Origin: Theionarchaea archaeon
Lineage (GTDB): Archaea > Methanobacteriota_B > Thermococci > Methanofastidiosales > SZ-28-30
Assembly (NCBI GenBank): GCA_018992685.1
Contig: JACVGT010000014.1
Span: forward strand, 62,001-126,000
Length of the DNA stretch: 64,000 nucleotides
Direction of reading: 5' to 3'
Part shown: positions 32,675 through 57,582 of the stretch, piece by piece
Layout of the letters: each line of letters begins with the position of its first letter
How positions within the stretch are numbered: the stretch's first letter is position 1
Made by a program: the position numbers and the translations under genes
The notes under the pieces: generated by a model
What the model was told of the DNA's origin: nothing
What the model saw: only the letters and a program-made list of their open reading frames with translations
The model's database searches: none

Positions 32675-32771
32675 CTTCTTCAGGGTGCAGTCCGGTGAAT
32701 TGCGATAATATCCATGTTCACATTATGAAAAGGGTTTTAAGGTATCCACAAAACATCAACTGGTGATTCAC

Positions 32772-34220
32772 ATGTTTGAGTTAAAAGGAGTCAATGTGGC
32801 TCTGGCCACTCCCTTTACCAAGGATTCTGTTGATGAAGAAGCTTTCAAAAATCTCATCCACTACTGCAAGGCGCAAGGTGTCCATGGGATTGTACCCTGT
32901 GGCTCCACAGGTGAATTCTCCAACATGACTTTTGAAGAGAAAGAGCGAGCCATAGAGATTGCAGTTGAAGAGGCCCAGGGGATGAAGGTCATTGCAGGAA
33001 CAGGGGATTCAGGAACAGATAAAACCATTGGAATGACGAAGGCAGCCGAGGACATAGGTGCAGATGCCTGTCTGGTGGTTACCCCTTTTTACATGAAACC
33101 AGCAGACAAGGGGATGTTTGAACACTTTGCAGCGTTGGAGGAGTCAGTTGATCTCCCCATTGTCCTGTACAATATTCCTCCTTTGACAGGTGTTACTCTG
33201 CCCTGGAAGGTTGTCGAAGATCTTGCCGAATTGGAAGGCATTGTGGGCATCAAAGACTCTTCTGGGAACATGTCGTATATCATGACGTTACTGGAGAAGG
33301 TTTCATCTAAGATAAACGTGGTGTGTGGATGGGATGAAATTGTTCTTCCCTCCCTTGCCGCAGGCGCAGACGGAATGATTTTGGCCTCAGCCAATATAAT
33401 CGGTGATTACTGGGTGAAAATCTACAATGCCATGCAGAACAAGGAGTACGAAAAGGCTGTGGAAATCCAGAAAAGAATCCAGAAATTAACCCGGATCATA
33501 TGTGCTACAGGTGCTCTTGGGACAAAAGCGGGGCTGAACTACTTGGGTGTAAAGGTGGGGAAATGCAGGAACCCTCTCATGATTGGTGATACCTTGTCAT
33601 ATGAGAATAAGGAAGAGATTAGAATCGAACTTGAAAAACTGGGGAAAATCAAAGCAGAAGAAATTACCTTCAAACTGGAAGGAAAAGAGGTAAAGTCACG
33701 GTTTACCACAGCGGGGATTACACCTGCAGTCATTGATGATTTCTCCCTGAGAATTGGAGAAGCTCTATGTGGCGAAGGGGCAGAAGTAGCTCACATTGAT
33801 TTGTTGATCGGAGAACGGAAAGGTCCTGTGGGAGAGGCCTATGCCACCGTGCTGGCTTCTGATAAAAATGCATTGCAGGTCATATTGGAGCCAAATGTCC
33901 TGGTAAAACCCAATACACTGATTATCCCGACGGTGAAAATGAAGGACATGCGTCATGCCTCTATTGTCTATGGTCCTGCTCAGGCAGGCGTCGCTAAAGC
34001 ACTGGCAGATTCAGTTCAGGATGGTATTCTGCCCGAAGAAGTGCTGTTAATTGTCAATGTGTTTGTACATCCTTCAGCCTCGAACAGAAAGCAGGTATAC
34101 ATAAACAATTACAAGGCCACCCGTCACGCCATCAGGAGAGCAATAGAAGGAAGACCGACCAGGGAAGAGATCATGGAAGTCAAAGACAATGCACGTCATC
34201 CCTTCAGGTACTCTCCTTGA
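32772..34220 (+). CDS. DapA-superfamily aldolase fused to formaldehyde-activating enzyme (Fae)
   Basis: A 482-residue two-domain protein. Residues 1-293 form a complete DHDPS/NAL-type barrel with G44-S-T-G-E48, Tyr 133 (LYNIPPLTG) and Schiff-base Lys 161 (GIKDSSG). Arg 138, which binds aspartate semialdehyde in true DHDPS, is Leu here, so lysine synthesis is unlikely. A linker of about 30 residues leads to a complete Fae domain (327-482): RIGEALCGEGAEVAHIDLLIG with catalytic His 341, [32 protein letters not shown] and NNYKATRHAIRRA. Fae condenses formaldehyde with tetrahydromethanopterin. A GGTGAT site precedes ATG 32772. The gene appears monocistronic, with the frame continuous across the junction. 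Confidence 0.93.
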   Translation: MFELKGVNVALATPFTKDSVDEEAFKNLIHYCKAQGVHGIVPCGSTGEFSNMTFEEKERAIEIAVEEAQGMKVIAGTGDSGTDKTIGMTKAAEDIGADACLVVTPFYMKPADKGMFEHFAALEESVDLPIVLYNIPPLTGVTLPWKVVEDLAELEGIVGIKDSSGNMSYIMTLLEKVSSKINVVCGWDEIVLPSLAAGADGMILASANIIGDYWVKIYNAMQNKEYEKAVEIQKRIQKLTRIICATGALGTKAGLNYLGVKVGKCRNPLMIGDTLSYENKEEIRIELEKLGKIKAEEITFKLEGKEVKSRFTTAGITPAVIDDFSLRIGEALCGEGAEVAHIDLLIGERKGPVGEAYATVLASDKNALQVILEPNVLVKPNTLIIPTVKMKDMRHASIVYGPAQAGVAKALADSVQDGILPEEVLLIVNVFVHPSASNRKQVYINNYKATRHAIRRAIEGRPTREEIMEVKDNARHPFRYSP

Positions 34221-43272: not shown

Positions 43273-44220
43273 ATGGAAGATATTGAAATGTACAAGAAAA
43301 TGCTGGAAATCAGAATGTTTGAGGAGAAAGTGTATGACCTTTTCGCTCAGAACCTCATCCCAGGAACCATGCATCTGTACATGGGACAGGAGGCGGTGGC
43401 TGTGGGGGTATGCGCAGCCCTCACTCCCAATGATTTTATCACCTCCACTCACCGGGGACACGGCCACTGTATTGCTAAGGGTGCCTCTCTCAAGAAGATG
43501 ATGGCTGAAATTTTCGGAAAGAAAACAGGCTACTGCAAAGGAAAGGGGGGGAGCATGCACATAACAGATAAGAATATCGGCATGCTGGGAGCAAATGCAG
43601 TCGTGGGAGGCGCTATTCCCATCGCTGTTGGAGCTGGACTCTCCTGCAAACTGAAATACCCGGAACGGGTGACAGCATGCTTTTTTGGCGACGGGGCATC
43701 AAACCAGGGAACTTTCCATGAAGGGATAAACATGGCGTCAGTCTGGGATCTTCCTGTGATCTTTGTGTGTGAAAACAACCTGTATGCCATGGGAACCCGG
43801 CAGTCTCTGGTGATGAACATCCAGGACATTTCACAGAGAGCAGCAGGATACAAGATACCTGGAGTGACAGTTGACGGAAATGACGTCATGGCGGTACATG
43901 AAGAAGCACAAAGGGCAGTGGCCAGAGCCAGAAATGGGGAAGGGCCGACGTTGCTTGAATGCAAGACGTACAGGCACAAGGGACATTCCCGGTTTGATCC
44001 CGCAAAGTACAGGCCTCCGGAAGAAGTTGCTGAGTGGATGGCCAGAGACCCAATAGAATCCTTTAGAGACAAGCTTCTGGATAAGGGAATCCCGGAGGAG
44101 TTCTTACATAAAATTGAATCCACAGTAGAAGCTGAAATCGACGAAGCCGTCAAATTTGCTGAAGAGAGCCCTCTCCCCGAGCCTGAGGACGCACTTAAGG
44201 ACGTGTGGGTGATAGAATGA
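43273..44220 (+). CDS. pdhA: 2-oxoacid dehydrogenase E1 alpha subunit (pyruvate/acetoin type)
   Basis: Thiamine-diphosphate subunit of a lipoyl-dependent 2-oxoacid dehydrogenase. The 315-residue protein has MYMGQEAVAVGV (about 36-47), the TPP-binding GDGASNQGTFHEGINMAS, CKTYRHKGHSRFDP and an EEFLHKI C-terminus. The short length and THRGHGHCIAKG fit the pyruvate/acetoin branch rather than the larger homodimeric E1. GAGGTGAG-type sequence precedes the ATG, and ACATTTAAGG (about 43213-43222) is a candidate TATA box. It overlaps the beta-subunit gene by ATGA; five genes 43273-48826 form the operon. Confidence 0.95.
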   Translation: MEDIEMYKKMLEIRMFEEKVYDLFAQNLIPGTMHLYMGQEAVAVGVCAALTPNDFITSTHRGHGHCIAKGASLKKMMAEIFGKKTGYCKGKGGSMHITDKNIGMLGANAVVGGAIPIAVGAGLSCKLKYPERVTACFFGDGASNQGTFHEGINMASVWDLPVIFVCENNLYAMGTRQSLVMNIQDISQRAAGYKIPGVTVDGNDVMAVHEEAQRAVARARNGEGPTLLECKTYRHKGHSRFDPAKYRPPEEVAEWMARDPIESFRDKLLDKGIPEEFLHKIESTVEAEIDEAVKFAEESPLPEPEDALKDVWVIE

Positions 44221-45191
44221 GAGAAATCACTGTGGTTGAAGCACTGAATGAAGCTCTGAGAGAAGAAATGCGAAGGGACGAAAATGTTGTACTGCTGGGA
44301 GAAGACATCGGAAAATACTGGCAGGGAGCTTTCAAGGTGACTAAGGGACTGGAAGAGGAGTTCGGCTCAGATCGCGTGAGGGACACACCCATTTCAGAGA
44401 ATGCAATTGTAGGGTGTGCAGTGGGTGCTGCCATGACAGGGCTGAGACCCGTAGCTGAAATCATGTTTGGGGACCTGGTGGCTCTGGCAATGGATCAGAT
44501 CTGCAACCAGGCTGCCAAGTTGCGCTACATGTCAGGGGGGCAGGTCAGGGTACCCATGGTTCTCCGTACTCCTTTTGGGGCAGGAGGATCCTATGCCTCC
44601 CATCACTCACAGAGCCTGGAAGCCTGGTTTATTCATGTGCCTGGACTGAAGGTGGTACAGCCTTCCAATGCGTATGATGCCAAGGGGCTGCTCAAAGCAA
44701 GCATTCGCGATGACAATCCCGTGGTGTTCTGTGAACATAAGTTTGTGTACGGGCTGAAAGGGACTGTGCCAGAGGAGGACTATGTGGTTCCCCTTGGAGA
44801 AGCCAGGGTAGCACGAGAAGGTGAAGACATCACCATTGTAGCCACCTCCTTGATGGTAGAGAGAGCACTCAGGGCAGCTGCAGCGCTGGAAGAGGATGGA
44901 ATTTCCTGTGAAATTGTTGATCCGCGTACTCTCAGACCACTGGATGAAGAAACGCTCTGTGCCTCAGCCAAGAAGACAGGCAAAGTTCTCATCATTCATG
45001 AGGCATGCGATACGGGCGGGATTTCTGGCGAGATCACCAAAACTCTAGTAAGGAGAGTTTTTTATTATCTGGATGCAATTGAGATACTGGCAGGAAAAGA
45101 TGCTCCTATTCCATTCGCCCCAGTAATGGAAAAATGGGTAGCGCCAGATGAAGAACGAATCAAGAAAGCCGTAAAGGAGATTGTAGTATGA
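44217..45191 (+). CDS. pdhB: 2-oxoacid dehydrogenase E1 beta subunit
   Basis: The 324-residue beta subunit completes the E1 tetramer and contributes the TPP-activating Glu. It shows ENVVLLGEDIGKYWQGAFKVT, DTPISENAIVGCAVGAAMTGLRPVAEIMFGD and the C-terminal transketolase domain with VDPRTLRPLDEETLCASAKKT. ATG 44217 overlaps the E1 alpha stop (ATGA); an upstream ATG at 44205 is not needed. It is followed by the E2 gene with a 4-nt overlap. Confidence 0.96.
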   Translation: MREITVVEALNEALREEMRRDENVVLLGEDIGKYWQGAFKVTKGLEEEFGSDRVRDTPISENAIVGCAVGAAMTGLRPVAEIMFGDLVALAMDQICNQAAKLRYMSGGQVRVPMVLRTPFGAGGSYASHHSQSLEAWFIHVPGLKVVQPSNAYDAKGLLKASIRDDNPVVFCEHKFVYGLKGTVPEEDYVVPLGEARVAREGEDITIVATSLMVERALRAAAALEEDGISCEIVDPRTLRPLDEETLCASAKKTGKVLIIHEACDTGGISGEITKTLVRRVFYYLDAIEILAGKDAPIPFAPVMEKWVAPDEERIKKAVKEIVV

Positions 45192-46819
45192 AGATGGTAA
45201 TGCCCAAAATGGGAATGACAATGGAAGAAGGAACCATTGTTGAATGGAAAAAGCGAGAGGGAGAATTCGTTGAAAAGGGTGAGATAATTCTGGAGATCAT
45301 GACTAACAAAGTAAATATTGAGGTAGAAGCACCTGCATCTGGATTTTTGAAGATTCTACGAGGAGTGGATGACGTTGTGCTGGTGGGAGAGGTTATTGCA
45401 TCGATTGAAGAAAAAGTTCCAGAAGCTGTGGAAAAGGCGGAGGTTTCTCGAGCTATGGAGGATGTCCCCTGGAAGGAACCAGAATTCAAGCCAGTAAGGC
45501 AGGAGAGAGAGGTGGTGGAAATTTCTGTACAAGAAGAGAGGACACCTGCATCTCCAAGGGCCAGGAGAGTGGCCGAAGACTACGGAGTTCTGCTGGAAAA
45601 TGTGAGAGGAACTGGACCAGACGGTGCCGTCACTGAAGGAGACGTGCTCAGCTATGTTGGAAAGCGGAAATCTCAGGAAGCCTTTCAATCGGGGCTACCT
45701 GGAGTCTCTCCCCTTGCAGAACGCATTGCCCGGGAGAAGGGTATTGATCTGTCTAGGATCAAGGGTACAGGACTCGAAGGGAAAATCACAAAGGAAGACG
45801 TTTTCAGGTACATGGAAGAAAGAGAGAAACCTGAACGGCCTAGAATGCAGAAGGAGTTGGAACCAGAAAAACCAGGAATAGAGAAGGAGCGGGAACCAGA
45901 GATTCCTAGAATAGAGAAGGAGCGGGAACCAGAGATTCCTAGAATAGAGAAAGAGCGGGAACCAGAGATTCCTAGAATAGAGAAGTCTTCAGAGATTGAA
46001 TTGGAACAGGCAATCGAAAAGCCAATGATAAGACCTGAACCCGTTTCACAGCTGCCACCAATACAGACCGGGGCAACACTGGCAGAACCAGAACACCGCG
46101 TTGAAGAGCCCATTATGCACCTTGAGAAACCTCTCGGGCCTGAACCGGAAGGAAAGACTCTCCCTTTGACAGGAATACGAAAACTCACTGCAGAGAGAAT
46201 GAGCAGGAGCAAAAGAGAGGCTCCTCATCTGACCCTGGGCATGGACGTGGACATGACAGAGGCCAGCAACCTGAAAACCTCTCTTGCAGTCACCTACACC
46301 GACATTCTCGTCAAGGCTGTTGCCCTTGCGTTGAGGACCCATCCCCAGCTGAACTCTACCTTATCTGAAAACAGGATCGTACTGAGAGACACTATCAACA
46401 TCGGAATTGCAGTGGCCAGGGGAGAGGATCTGCTGGTGCCTGTGATCCACAGAGCAGATGCTCTCTCTTTAAAGAAGATTTCTCAGGCAACTGCAGATAT
46501 CATAGAGCGAACTCGCAAGGACCAGTTGAAAGACACCGATGTTCTAGACGGCACTTTTACCATTTCCAACCTGGGAATGTATGATATCGACTTTTTTACA
46601 CCCATTATCAACCCCCCTGAAGCTGCAATCTTGGGAGTGGGAAGAATCACACCGCGGCCTGTGGTGGTAAGGAATCGAATTGAAATACGTGAGATAGCTA
46701 CCCTCTCTTTGAGTTTCGACCACCGAATTGTTAATGGCGTACCTGCTGCCCTTTTCCTCAAGGAGGTCAGGAATCTCCTGGAACATCCCTACAGGCTGCT
46801 GATGGAGGAAGAGCCATGA
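45188..46819 (+). CDS. pdhC: 2-oxoacid dehydrogenase E2 (dihydrolipoamide acyltransferase) with two E3-binding domains
   Basis: A 543-residue core subunit. In order: a lipoyl domain (1-75, lipoyl-Lys 41 in MTNKVNIEV), two peripheral-subunit-binding domains (RARRVAEDYGVLLENVRGTG, about 120-157, and LAERIAREKGIDLSRIKGTG, about 174-212), a repeat-rich linker (three perfect EREPEIPRIEK units), and the catalytic chloramphenicol-acetyltransferase-like domain (about 315-543). The active-site motif reads FDHRIVNG (His 512, Asn 516) where most E2s have HRXXDG. It overlaps E1 beta and E3 by 4 nt each. Confidence 0.95.
   Translation: MKMVMPKMGMTMEEGTIVEWKKREGEFVEKGEIILEIMTNKVNIEVEAPASGFLKILRGVDDVVLVGEVIASIEEKVPEAVEKAEVSRAMEDVPWKEPEFKPVRQEREVVEISVQEERTPASPRARRVAEDYGVLLENVRGTGPDGAVTEGDVLSYVGKRKSQEAFQSGLPGVSPLAERIAREKGIDLSRIKGTGLEGKITKEDVFRYMEEREKPERPRMQKELEPEKPGIEKEREPEIPRIEKEREPEIPRIEKEREPEIPRIEKSSEIELEQAIEKPMIRPEPVSQLPPIQTGATLAEPEHRVEEPIMHLEKPLGPEPEGKTLPLTGIRKLTAERMSRSKREAPHLTLGMDVDMTEASNLKTSLAVTYTDILVKAVALALRTHPQLNSTLSENRIVLRDTINIGIAVARGEDLLVPVIHRADALSLKKISQATADIIERTRKDQLKDTDVLDGTFTISNLGMYDIDFFTPIINPPEAAILGVGRITPRPVVVRNRIEIREIATLSLSFDHRIVNGVPAALFLKEVRNLLEHPYRLLMEEEP
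45878..45976 (+). repeat. Three tandem 33-bp repeats within pdhC
   Basis: The unit ATAGAGAAGGAGCGGGAACC plus 13 more bases is repeated three times in tandem (45878-45910, 45911-45943, 45944-45976; the third differs by one base). It adds three 11-residue units (IEKEREPEIPR) to the E2 linker, and keeps the frame. Such near-identical units suggest recent slippage expansion and the copy number may vary between strains. Confidence 0.9.
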
Positions 46820-48132
46820 TAACGATACTTGGTGGGGGCCCTGGAGGGTACACAGCTGCCATCCGGGCAGTCCAGCTCGGCGCTGAGGTAACACTACTTG
46901 AAAAGGAAGAAGTGGGGGGAACCTGCCTGAACTGGGGCTGCGTTCCCTCTAAGGTATTCTTGAAAGGTTCTAAAATGTACAGCCAGCTTAAATTTGCTGA
47001 ATCCTACGGTGTCTTTGCCAAACCATCTCCTTTTGACATGAGGAGGCTGGGAGAACGAAAGAACGAGGTCAAACAAGCGTTGGTCATGGGATTGAAGAAC
47101 GTGCTCAGGTCGTATGGGGTGAATATTGTACACGGAGAGGGTCGGATGATTGATGAACACACAGTGGTGGGTCCTGGAGGGAATATTGCGTGTGACAAGA
47201 TTATTCTGGCCACGGGGTGTCAGCCGGAGGTGCCCCATTTGTTTCAAGAACTCTCCGTGACATACAAAGATGTTTTCCAGCTGCAATATCTTCCCAGAAG
47301 TGTTCTGGTGGTGAATGGGGGGGTGTTCGCTGTGGAAATGGCCTGGTTCTTTTTGGAATTGGGGTCACAGGTGACCATGGTGGCTGAAAATGTGCTGGAA
47401 AGGGATTTTGAGGATATTGAAACTCGCATAGCATCTTACCTTCAGAACAGAGGAGTGAAATTTGTACAGGGAAGAATCGCATCCATCAAGAAACAAGGAG
47501 AACAGAAACTGGTAGAAATCGGAGAAGAAGAGATTATTGCAGAGGAGCTTATTTGGATGAATCGGAAACGCGTATTAGAGGGAATTCCAAGGAAGCTGGT
47601 GCAACATGAGAGTGTTGCTGTGAACGAGCACATGCAGACTGCCTTCCCGGCTGTGTATGCAGTGGGAGACATCACAGGGAGTTACACTGCAGGTGATGCC
47701 ATGGCTCAGGGAGTTGTGGCAGCCGAGCACGCAATGGGGAATACGACTGCGTACAATCCTCGGACCGTTCCCAAGGTACTCTATGCTCCAGAAGCTGCAG
47801 TGATTGGACTGACGGAGAGAGAAGCTTCAGAGGAGTACGACGTGGTAAAGGGGAATTTCCCGTATGGAGCTTCAGGCAGAGCTCAGACGGTGGGTGCCAT
47901 CAGAGGGAGAGTAACTATACTTGCGGATAAGAAGTATGGTGAAATCTTGGGGGCCCACATAGTGGGAAAAGGTGCCTCTGAGTTGATTCAGCTGATTGGG
48001 TTTGCAATGAGATTGGAAGCCACCATAGATGAGCTTTCGTCCTTGCTGTGTGCTCATCCTACTATGGTGGAAATGATACGGGATGCAGGATTGGATATTC
48101 ATGGAAATGCCTTTAACCTACCCAGGAAATGA
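46816..48132 (+). CDS. lpdA: Dihydrolipoamide dehydrogenase E3
   Basis: FAD flavoprotein that reoxidises the dihydrolipoyl arm of E2. The 438-residue protein has the FAD-binding GGGPGGYTAAIRAVQLGA, the redox disulfide in GGTCLNWGCVPSKVFLKGSK, an NAD-binding region around VVNGGVFAVEMAWFFLELG, VYAVGDITGSYTAGDAMAQG and the C-terminal HPTMVEMIRDAG with the catalytic His-Glu pair. Slightly shorter than bacterial E3 (about 470). The end overlaps the start of the lipoate ligase gene by 26 nt. Confidence 0.96.
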   Translation: MITILGGGPGGYTAAIRAVQLGAEVTLLEKEEVGGTCLNWGCVPSKVFLKGSKMYSQLKFAESYGVFAKPSPFDMRRLGERKNEVKQALVMGLKNVLRSYGVNIVHGEGRMIDEHTVVGPGGNIACDKIILATGCQPEVPHLFQELSVTYKDVFQLQYLPRSVLVVNGGVFAVEMAWFFLELGSQVTMVAENVLERDFEDIETRIASYLQNRGVKFVQGRIASIKKQGEQKLVEIGEEEIIAEELIWMNRKRVLEGIPRKLVQHESVAVNEHMQTAFPAVYAVGDITGSYTAGDAMAQGVVAAEHAMGNTTAYNPRTVPKVLYAPEAAVIGLTEREASEEYDVVKGNFPYGASGRAQTVGAIRGRVTILADKKYGEILGAHIVGKGASELIQLIGFAMRLEATIDELSSLLCAHPTMVEMIRDAGLDIHGNAFNLPRK

Positions 48133-48826
48133 GTTACGGCTGTTGTACCAGCATGGCGATCCGGCTGTTTCTCTGGCTTTTGAGGAAGCCATAGCCAGGT
48201 GCGGTATACCGACGTTCAGGGTGTGGGTGACCTCGAAATGTGTGGTCATAGGACGATTCCAGGACGTGAGTGAGGAAGTGGATGTGGAATACTGCACCGA
48301 GAAAGAGCTTCCCATTCTAAGACGGTTTACAGGAGGCGGGGCTGTCGTCTTGGATGAGGGTGTTGCCTGTCTTGCTTTTTGCCTTCCAGTGCAGAAGAAC
48401 CCGCTGGATGTCTTTCACGCTCTGAGTGAATGTGTTGGTAGTGCTATCGGGGCTGAGATTGATGAAAGGAATAATCTGTTCGTGAACGGGAAGAAGGTCT
48501 CAGGTGCTGCAGGCTGTAAGAAGTGGGGCTCCCTATTCCACCACTTGACCTTGCTGATGGCATGTGACACGGAACTGATGAGAGCTCTCACACCGGGGAG
48601 TGCAAGCCAATGCAAAACTGGCAGCGATGCACGTGAAGTCCGGAATATTGGCACGAACATGAGAGATGTACTAGTCCGAGTGGCCAGAAACATTGGGAAC
48701 CTGCTTGACACCAAGGTAACACCAGGAAAGATTACTCAGGAAGAGCGAAGCCTGGCAGATTACTTGCTCAGAGAGAAGTACGCCAAGAGCGAGTGGAATT
48801 TCATGGCCATTGATCCATTACACTAG
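48107..48826 (+). CDS. lplA: Lipoate-protein ligase A (catalytic domain only)
   Basis: A 239-residue member of the LplA/LipB/BirA superfamily that attaches lipoate to the E2 Lys. The signature RRFTGGGAVVLDEGVACLAFC (RR-X-TGGGAV-X-X-D) and NGKKVSGAAGCKKWGSLFHH carrying the catalytic Lys are intact. It lacks the C-terminal accessory domain of the bacterial 338-residue LplA; archaeal systems often encode that as a separate protein, which is not seen here. The ATG at 48107 lies inside the E3 reading frame; 48101 is an alternative. Last gene of the operon. Confidence 0.9.
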   Translation: MPLTYPGNELRLLYQHGDPAVSLAFEEAIARCGIPTFRVWVTSKCVVIGRFQDVSEEVDVEYCTEKELPILRRFTGGGAVVLDEGVACLAFCLPVQKNPLDVFHALSECVGSAIGAEIDERNNLFVNGKKVSGAAGCKKWGSLFHHLTLLMACDTELMRALTPGSASQCKTGSDAREVRNIGTNMRDVLVRVARNIGNLLDTKVTPGKITQEERSLADYLLREKYAKSEWNFMAIDPLH

Positions 48827-56373: not shown

Positions 56374-57582
56374 ATGAAAATTGGAGAAGCCTTAGTAGGG
56401 GATGGACTGGAAGTCGCTCATATTGATCTGATTATTGGAGAAAAGGACAGTGCAGTTGGGCAGGCTTTTGTAAGCAGCCTTGCTCAGCCTTCCTACGGTC
56501 ATACCCCTATGCTGGGCGTCATACGTCCCAACCTGCCCTCTAAACCATCCACCCTTATTGTGCCCAAAGTCACCATAAGAGGGTTCAAAGATGCAGGAAA
56601 AATGTTCGGCCCTGCCCAGGCAGGAGTTGCCAAGGCAGTGGCTGATGCAGTGGAGGAGGGACTGATTCCACGAGAACACTGCGAGGACTGGGTTGTCATT
56701 GTTTCTGTGTTTATTCACAAAGATGCTTCAGATTATCGGAAGATTTATCAATATAACTACGGAGCAACGAAACTGGCCATAAAGAGGGCCATGGAAGACT
56801 ATCCTTCGGTTGAGAAAGTCATAAGAGAGAAGGATAGGGCTACTCACCCCATCATGGGATTCAGAGTGTACCGGCTGTGGAATTCACCCTATCTGCAGGT
56901 TGCTCTTGACCTGACCAGCGAAGAACAGGTCAAGAATATCATCGAAAAACTGCCTCTCAGGGAGCGATTGCTGCTGGAAGCGGGTACGCCTCTCATAAAG
57001 AACTGCGGCATTGAAATCGTGGAAAAGATTAGGGCAATGCGACAGGAATCTTTCATTATTGCAGACCTGAAAACACTGGATGTGGGAAGGTTAGAGGTGA
57101 AAATGGCAGCAGATGCAACAGCAGATGCAGTGTGTATTTCAGGACTCGGTCCCAATGCATCGGTGGAAAAATCCATTCAGGAAGCGTACAGGCAGGGCAT
57201 TTACTCGATTGTGGACTTTATGAATGTTACAGATATTGAGAAAAAACTGAAATCTCTGAAATATAAGCCCGATATCGCCCTCATTCACCGCAATGTGGAT
57301 GTGGAGACTGCGGCCAGAGAACGAGGGGAGGAGCCGGAGACCAAATGGGGAAATATTACAGCTATCAAGAAGCTGGTCAAGCTTGTTTCAGTGGCAGGCG
57401 GCATCACGCCTCAGACCTGTGGAGAGGCACTGGACAAAGGTGCTGATATTATAGTAGTTGGCAGGTACATTATCAGGTCGTATGATCCCTACCAGGCAGC
57501 CCGGGACTTCTTGGAGAAAATGCCTCCTGATCCTGATACTATGCGACTAATCCTGGACGAAGATGAAGTGGTAGGAACATAA
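56374..57582 (+). CDS. fae-hps: Fae-Hps fusion: formaldehyde-activating enzyme and 3-hexulose-6-phosphate synthase
   Basis: A 402-residue bifunctional enzyme. Fae occupies residues 1-165: [22 protein letters not shown] (His 17), [20 protein letters not shown] and [20 protein letters not shown]. Hps follows: [40 protein letters not shown] (metal/phosphate-binding Asp/Lys), and [27 protein letters not shown]. In archaea Hps makes ribulose 5-phosphate by splitting hexulose 6-phosphate, and Fae captures the released formaldehyde. The ATG is 25 nt from TATA CCTTATATAGG, so it is leaderless. It is a second Fae besides that in the DapA fusion. Confidence 0.96.

Follow-up and report, generated by a model that had tools for sequence, protein, structure and literature searches.

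A DHDPS/NAL-superfamily aldolase fused to a formaldehyde-activating enzyme in Theionarchaea that probably passes formaldehyde between keto acid and one-carbon metabolism

The formaldehyde-activating enzyme (Fae) is found fused to the formaldehyde-releasing lyase Hps, where it was proposed to capture the formaldehyde of Hps (PMC5241800). Cleavage of 4-hydroxy-2-oxobutanoate (HOB) to pyruvate and formaldehyde was reported for the E. coli aldolases NanA and YagE; strains without nanA no longer grew on 2,4-dihydroxybutyrate, so that NanA was needed in vivo, and in vitro only the cleavage by YagE was measurable (PMC12709889, PMC13279387). In the opposite direction, the route from pyruvate and formaldehyde through HOB to homoserine worked in engineered E. 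coli, as a synthetic pathway (the HOB aldolase/homoserine cycle) that used a promiscuous side activity of RhmA and other enzymes (PMC8879981). We analyzed a window of 64,000 nucleotides from an uncultured sediment archaeon of the Theionarchaea, which were reported to retain the Wood-Ljungdahl pathway after the loss of Mcr and Mtr (PMC9635834). The window carried a gene in which an aldolase of the DHDPS/NAL superfamily was joined to Fae. It resembled Fae-Hps in setting Fae beside a predicted C-C lyase, and the same genome had a separate Fae-Hps gene of 402 aa on the plus strand (56374-57582; NF009833, 584 bits against a cut-off of 274), which was the second Fae-bearing gene of the genome. However, the partner of Fae in Fae-Hps is an OMP-decarboxylase-type barrel, whereas the partner here was an unrelated DHDPS/NAL-type TIM barrel with a Schiff-base lysine, and Fae is N-terminal in Fae-Hps but C-terminal in the fusion. 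No Hps (OMP-decarboxylase-type) domain was found in the fusion protein, which indicated that it was not a Fae-Hps. The chemistry that we propose for it is that of the engineered cycle, pyruvate + formaldehyde <-> HOB, but the fusion would be natural and coupled to Fae.

The gene was located at 32772-34220 on the plus strand. As the earlier note had claimed, it formed a single uninterrupted frame of 482 residues whose only stop was the terminal one. The aldolase domain covered residues 4-281 (32781-33614; PF00701, 243 bits against a Pfam cut-off of 22), followed by a linker of residues 282-326 (33615-33749) and the Fae domain of residues 328-478 (33753-34205; PF08714, 171 bits against a Pfam cut-off of 27). 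The NCBIfam models gave TIGR00674 (dapA) with 240 bits against a cut-off of 206 and TIGR03126 with 181 against 118. A Shine-Dalgarno-like GGTGAT (32762-32767, plus strand), conserved in the sister species described below, was located four bases before the ATG at 32772. This ATG was therefore preferred as the start over a GTG nine bases upstream. The stretch GAAAAGGGTTTTAAGG (32727-32742, plus strand), largely conserved in the sister species, was a candidate BRE/TATA-like element and suggests that the fusion gene has its own promoter. The gene probably forms a separate transcription unit, with EndoV on one side and a convergent ThrRS gene on the other. Its neighbors (EndoV, SepRS and ThrRS) gave no hint of a pathway, and no sugar-acid gene adjoined it.

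The source genome was 3.03 Mb in 45 contigs, and this fragmented assembly could have raised the suspicion that two genes had been joined artificially. The same fusion was found in a sister species of the same genus (Theionarchaea archaeon SZ_28-30, JACVGW010000070.1), 93% identical, in matching gene order and likewise without stops. Between the two orthologs, dN/dS was 0.032 in the aldolase, 0.042 in the linker and 0.031 in Fae, with dS near 1; the neighboring genes gave 0.064 (ThrRS) and 0.15 (EndoV). With an independent ortholog and a linker under purifying selection, the probability of an assembly or sequencing artifact was practically nil, and the joining error that the earlier note had named as a way to be wrong was excluded. 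The shared gene order and the low dN/dS throughout showed that the fusion was real, old and functional.

The search of genomes that had been proposed in the earlier note was run over two phyla, and the only second carrier was the sister species, the one other genome of its genus in the set. No third fusion was found among 115 genomes of the phylum (the two carriers and 113 others), and the 392 genomes from the Methanothrix phylum contained none. Viral contigs and phage collections gave zero fusions. Among the plasmid matches listed, the annotated Fae genes were plain fae. A contig scan, which reached close relatives only, matched the sister fusion and two DapA. Both carriers are MAGs, 91% (source) and 88% complete. 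Within the two phyla and the viral, phage and plasmid collections covered, the fusion was thus known from one genus. The claim that no enzyme of this make-up had been described also held: in full-text literature searches, whose coverage included few of the subscription journals, no fusion of Fae with an aldolase of the DHDPS or NAL type was described.

The N-terminal half contained a complete aldolase with Tyr133, Lys161 and the GSTGE loop (44-48) at the positions that had been claimed. Membership in the DHDPS/NAL superfamily was supported by PF00701, the Schiff-base K161 and Y133 as the tyrosine of the YN[VI]P motif, and Y107 was also kept. By overall identity, the nearest proteins were archaeal DHDPS (DapA) at about 41%. 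The possibility was considered that the fusion was the lysine-pathway DHDPS of the cell, happening to carry Fae. It was the sole DHDPS-superfamily match in the source genome, it passed TIGR00674, and DapF and LysA-like genes were present in that genome. However, R138 was replaced by L138, and the other pocket motifs were all unlike those of the archaeal DHDPS examined. Nearly all of these had Arg138, GTTGES, TPYYNKP, KEASG, SGDD and ETNPIPVK, whereas the fusion had GSTGEF, TPFYMKP, PPLTG, KDSSG, CGWDE and ATGALGTK. The DHDPS-like relatives examined from Halobacteriota retained Arg138. In the tree, forcing the fusion aldolase into the DHDPS clade was rejected (AU p 0.009), and DapB (PF05173) was absent over its cut-off from both carrier genomes. 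The DapF gene and two LysA-like genes of the source genome clustered with a symporter, an aminopeptidase-like gene and a racemase-like gene (functions assigned by eye), and because of this company in transport and racemase-type genes they need not mean lysine synthesis. A lysine-pathway role was therefore judged highly improbable and was rejected. The assignment fits a DHDPS/NAL-superfamily member that is not a DHDPS, as the earlier note had expected from Leu138.

Several related loci were observed during this comparison. At L097:9594-14159 and L080:13968-18584, in genomes without DapB, DapF was clustered with two LysA-like genes and a gene resembling class V aminotransferases, and these clusters perhaps serve the metabolism of D-amino acids and not the synthesis of lysine. 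A second DHDPS-superfamily gene (L080:10013-10915, minus strand) was found in the sister genome only, with GSAGE and the Arg138 position kept. It adjoined cysteine synthase-like and aspartate racemase-like genes. Although it suggested a lysine operon at first sight, no conclusion was drawn from it, since it stood about 3 kb from DapF and was not found in the source genome. In addition, a Thermococcales clade of DHDPS-like proteins (L004, L021, L027 and similar loci) had the pocket motifs GSNGEF, KFTG, KDSSG and AGT(A/G)D, unlike DHDPS.

The pocket was compared by aligning the aldolase half with just three proteins of known function. It equaled E. coli NanA at S47, T48, Y110, Y137, L142, K165, G189, D191 and E192 (NanA numbering), and most of these positions agreed with YagE as well. 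In the NanA pocket set (S47, T48, Y137, L142, K165, D191, E192, S208 and F252), all residues were matched but S208 and F252. These corresponded to Ala205 and Ala248 of the fusion, the latter also replacing F258 of YagE. NanA and YagE thus shared with the fusion the fold, the Schiff-base lysine and the majority of the pocket residues, among them L138 and the aromatic-Asp-acid triplet, but they were about 30% identical to it and have no Fae. A NAL identity is not supported at the model cut-off (TIGR00683 nanA, 157 bits against 382). In the tree, a clade with NanA was neither shown nor rejected (p-AU 0.39), with long branches. The aldolase half was well predicted in an AF2 model built on 25 sequences, in which the Fae half was poor (pLDDT mostly <50) and the domain orientation was not used. 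Its best matches were DHDPS and human HOGA (4-hydroxy-2-oxoglutarate aldolase), with Z about 41-42 and rmsd 1.3-1.7. Because both were matched about equally, the fold was uninformative on the substrate.

The GWDE stretch at 186-189 bears on the substrate. The matching residues of NanA and YagE presumably line the polyol site, and we take the NanA equivalents of the D188-E189 pair to contact sugar hydroxyls. Since this pair was kept, a longer sugar acid is possible as the substrate. D188 and E189 would suit a polyhydroxylated substrate as well as HOB, which counts against HOB. The aldolase might then serve a longer 2-keto-3-deoxy sugar acid (C5-C9) and release no formaldehyde, while Fae would be active on formaldehyde from elsewhere, such as from Fae-Hps. 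Archaeal KDG aldolases and NALs belong to the same superfamily, which is in keeping with such a role. It would leave a strictly kept Fae (dN/dS 0.03) next to an unrelated reaction with no evident advantage, and no sugar-acid gene adjoined the fusion. We regard a longer sugar acid as unlikely, but as a credible contender.

The C-terminal half was a complete Fae domain with His341, as the earlier note had stated and as the Pfam match and the residue position confirmed. The EVAHID motif was intact, and most invariant Fae positions were kept; intactness was judged from conserved positions alone and not from published active-site numbering. The domain was 42% identical to Fae of Methylorubrum/Methylobacterium (PDB 1y5y) over 154 positions (E 8e-33) and 46% identical to the Fae-Hps of the window. 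That Fae-Hps was 53% identical to 1y5y, so the fusion Fae was the more diverged. The only gaps in its alignment were two short deletions, one of 3 residues and one of 4. These deletions and the lower identity might point to a Fae half that is past catalysis and merely binds the pterin or assembles the aldolase. However, the retained motif and invariant positions, TIGR03126 well above its cut-off and the selection on this half argued against the loss of activity, which we consider very unlikely.

The genomes were then compared for one-carbon genes. Mch (PF02289) was found in both carriers of the fusion; four further genomes, three from the order and one from the class, were tested and lacked it. 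The mch gene of the source genome was grouped with genes for a MetE-like methyltransferase and an MptN-like ligase, the latter scoring 283.6 bits against a cut-off of 350. With Fae-Hps in the window, the fusion tracked with H4MPT-type C1 genes, which was the association that the earlier note had proposed to look for. However, F420-dependent Mtd was not found in the source genome, and neither carrier had a match to beta-RFAP synthase (TIGR00144), which acts in H4MPT synthesis, despite Mch and the MptN-like ligase. With these absences, H4MPT is a presumed carrier pterin. Separately, the window contained a complete 2-oxo acid (pyruvate-type) dehydrogenase set in one run at 43273-48826, recognized by eye from the translations. 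It comprised E1 alpha, E1 beta, a long lipoyl E2, E3 and a lipoate ligase-like gene, which is unusual for an anaerobic archaeon.

On the basis of residues and gene content, our leading reading is a bifunctional enzyme that would cleave a 4-hydroxy-2-oxo acid, most likely HOB, and pass the formaldehyde to H4MPT; we hold it tentatively, at a little short of an even chance. The N-terminal half would act as a class I pyruvate aldolase through a Lys161 Schiff base in a NanA/YagE-like pocket, and would yield pyruvate and formaldehyde from HOB. The Fae domain would condense the released formaldehyde with tetrahydromethanopterin, or a local pterin, to methylene-H4MPT, which would enter the methyl branch of the Wood-Ljungdahl pathway. 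The net reaction would be HOB + H4MPT <-> pyruvate + methylene-H4MPT + H2O. Among the 2-keto-3-deoxy sugar acids handled by such pockets, HOB is the one with four carbons, and formaldehyde would therefore be a natural aldehyde product. Cleavage was taken as the first-choice direction by analogy with Fae-Hps, in which Fae is proposed to capture formaldehyde. The release of formaldehyde by the aldolase half, as suggested earlier, thus gained a precedent in HOB cleavage by NanA and YagE with shared pocket residues; the identity of formaldehyde as the shared intermediate, like the substrate and the direction, we infer.

The direction could also be reversed. Fae would then free formaldehyde from methylene-H4MPT, and the aldolase would add it to a 2-oxo acid, converting pyruvate to HOB and on to homoserine, or 2-oxoisovalerate to ketopantoate, as a two-domain 2-oxo acid hydroxymethyltransferase. 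Homoserine dehydrogenase (PF00742) was absent in both carriers, whereas the other tested members of the order and class had it, as did each of the 14 controls. Threonine synthase was over its cut-off in the source genome, where an alanine aminotransferase-type gene adjoined it, and a corresponding match was found in the sister genome. The homoserine route from pyruvate in engineered E. coli is a working precedent for this direction. However, homoserine kinase (ThrB) was over its cut-off in neither carrier. With homoserine dehydrogenase and ThrB both missing, the threonine route would be broken at two steps, and auxotrophy would explain the same facts; the carriers are, moreover, incomplete MAGs. 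PanB was also absent from the carriers, but the non-carriers of the order and the methanogen controls lacked it as well, so a replacement of PanB by the fusion was set aside as uninformative. Synthesis was considered quite unlikely as the direction of the enzyme. It would be a long shot that the fusion is a natural aldolase dedicated to formaldehyde and pyruvate, which is coupled to methylene-H4MPT and replaces homoserine dehydrogenase for homoserine (or feeds another hydroxymethyl 2-oxo acid).

Fae fusions indicate where free formaldehyde arises in a cell, and the present fusion probably passes formaldehyde between keto acid and one-carbon metabolism. In the literature found so far, formaldehyde exchange with a 2-oxo acid has been described for E. 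coli aldolases, as one of their side activities. If cleavage of HOB coupled to Fae is true, this exchange would be a real reaction of an archaeon, and the fusion would offer synthetic C1 assimilation an enzyme ready for use. If the fusion were instead the source of homoserine, it would parallel in nature the entry into the synthetic homoserine cycle and add a new C1-assimilation branch to the archaeal Wood-Ljungdahl pathway. Coupled cleavage of HOB would form a new link from the methyl branch of that pathway to C4 acids.
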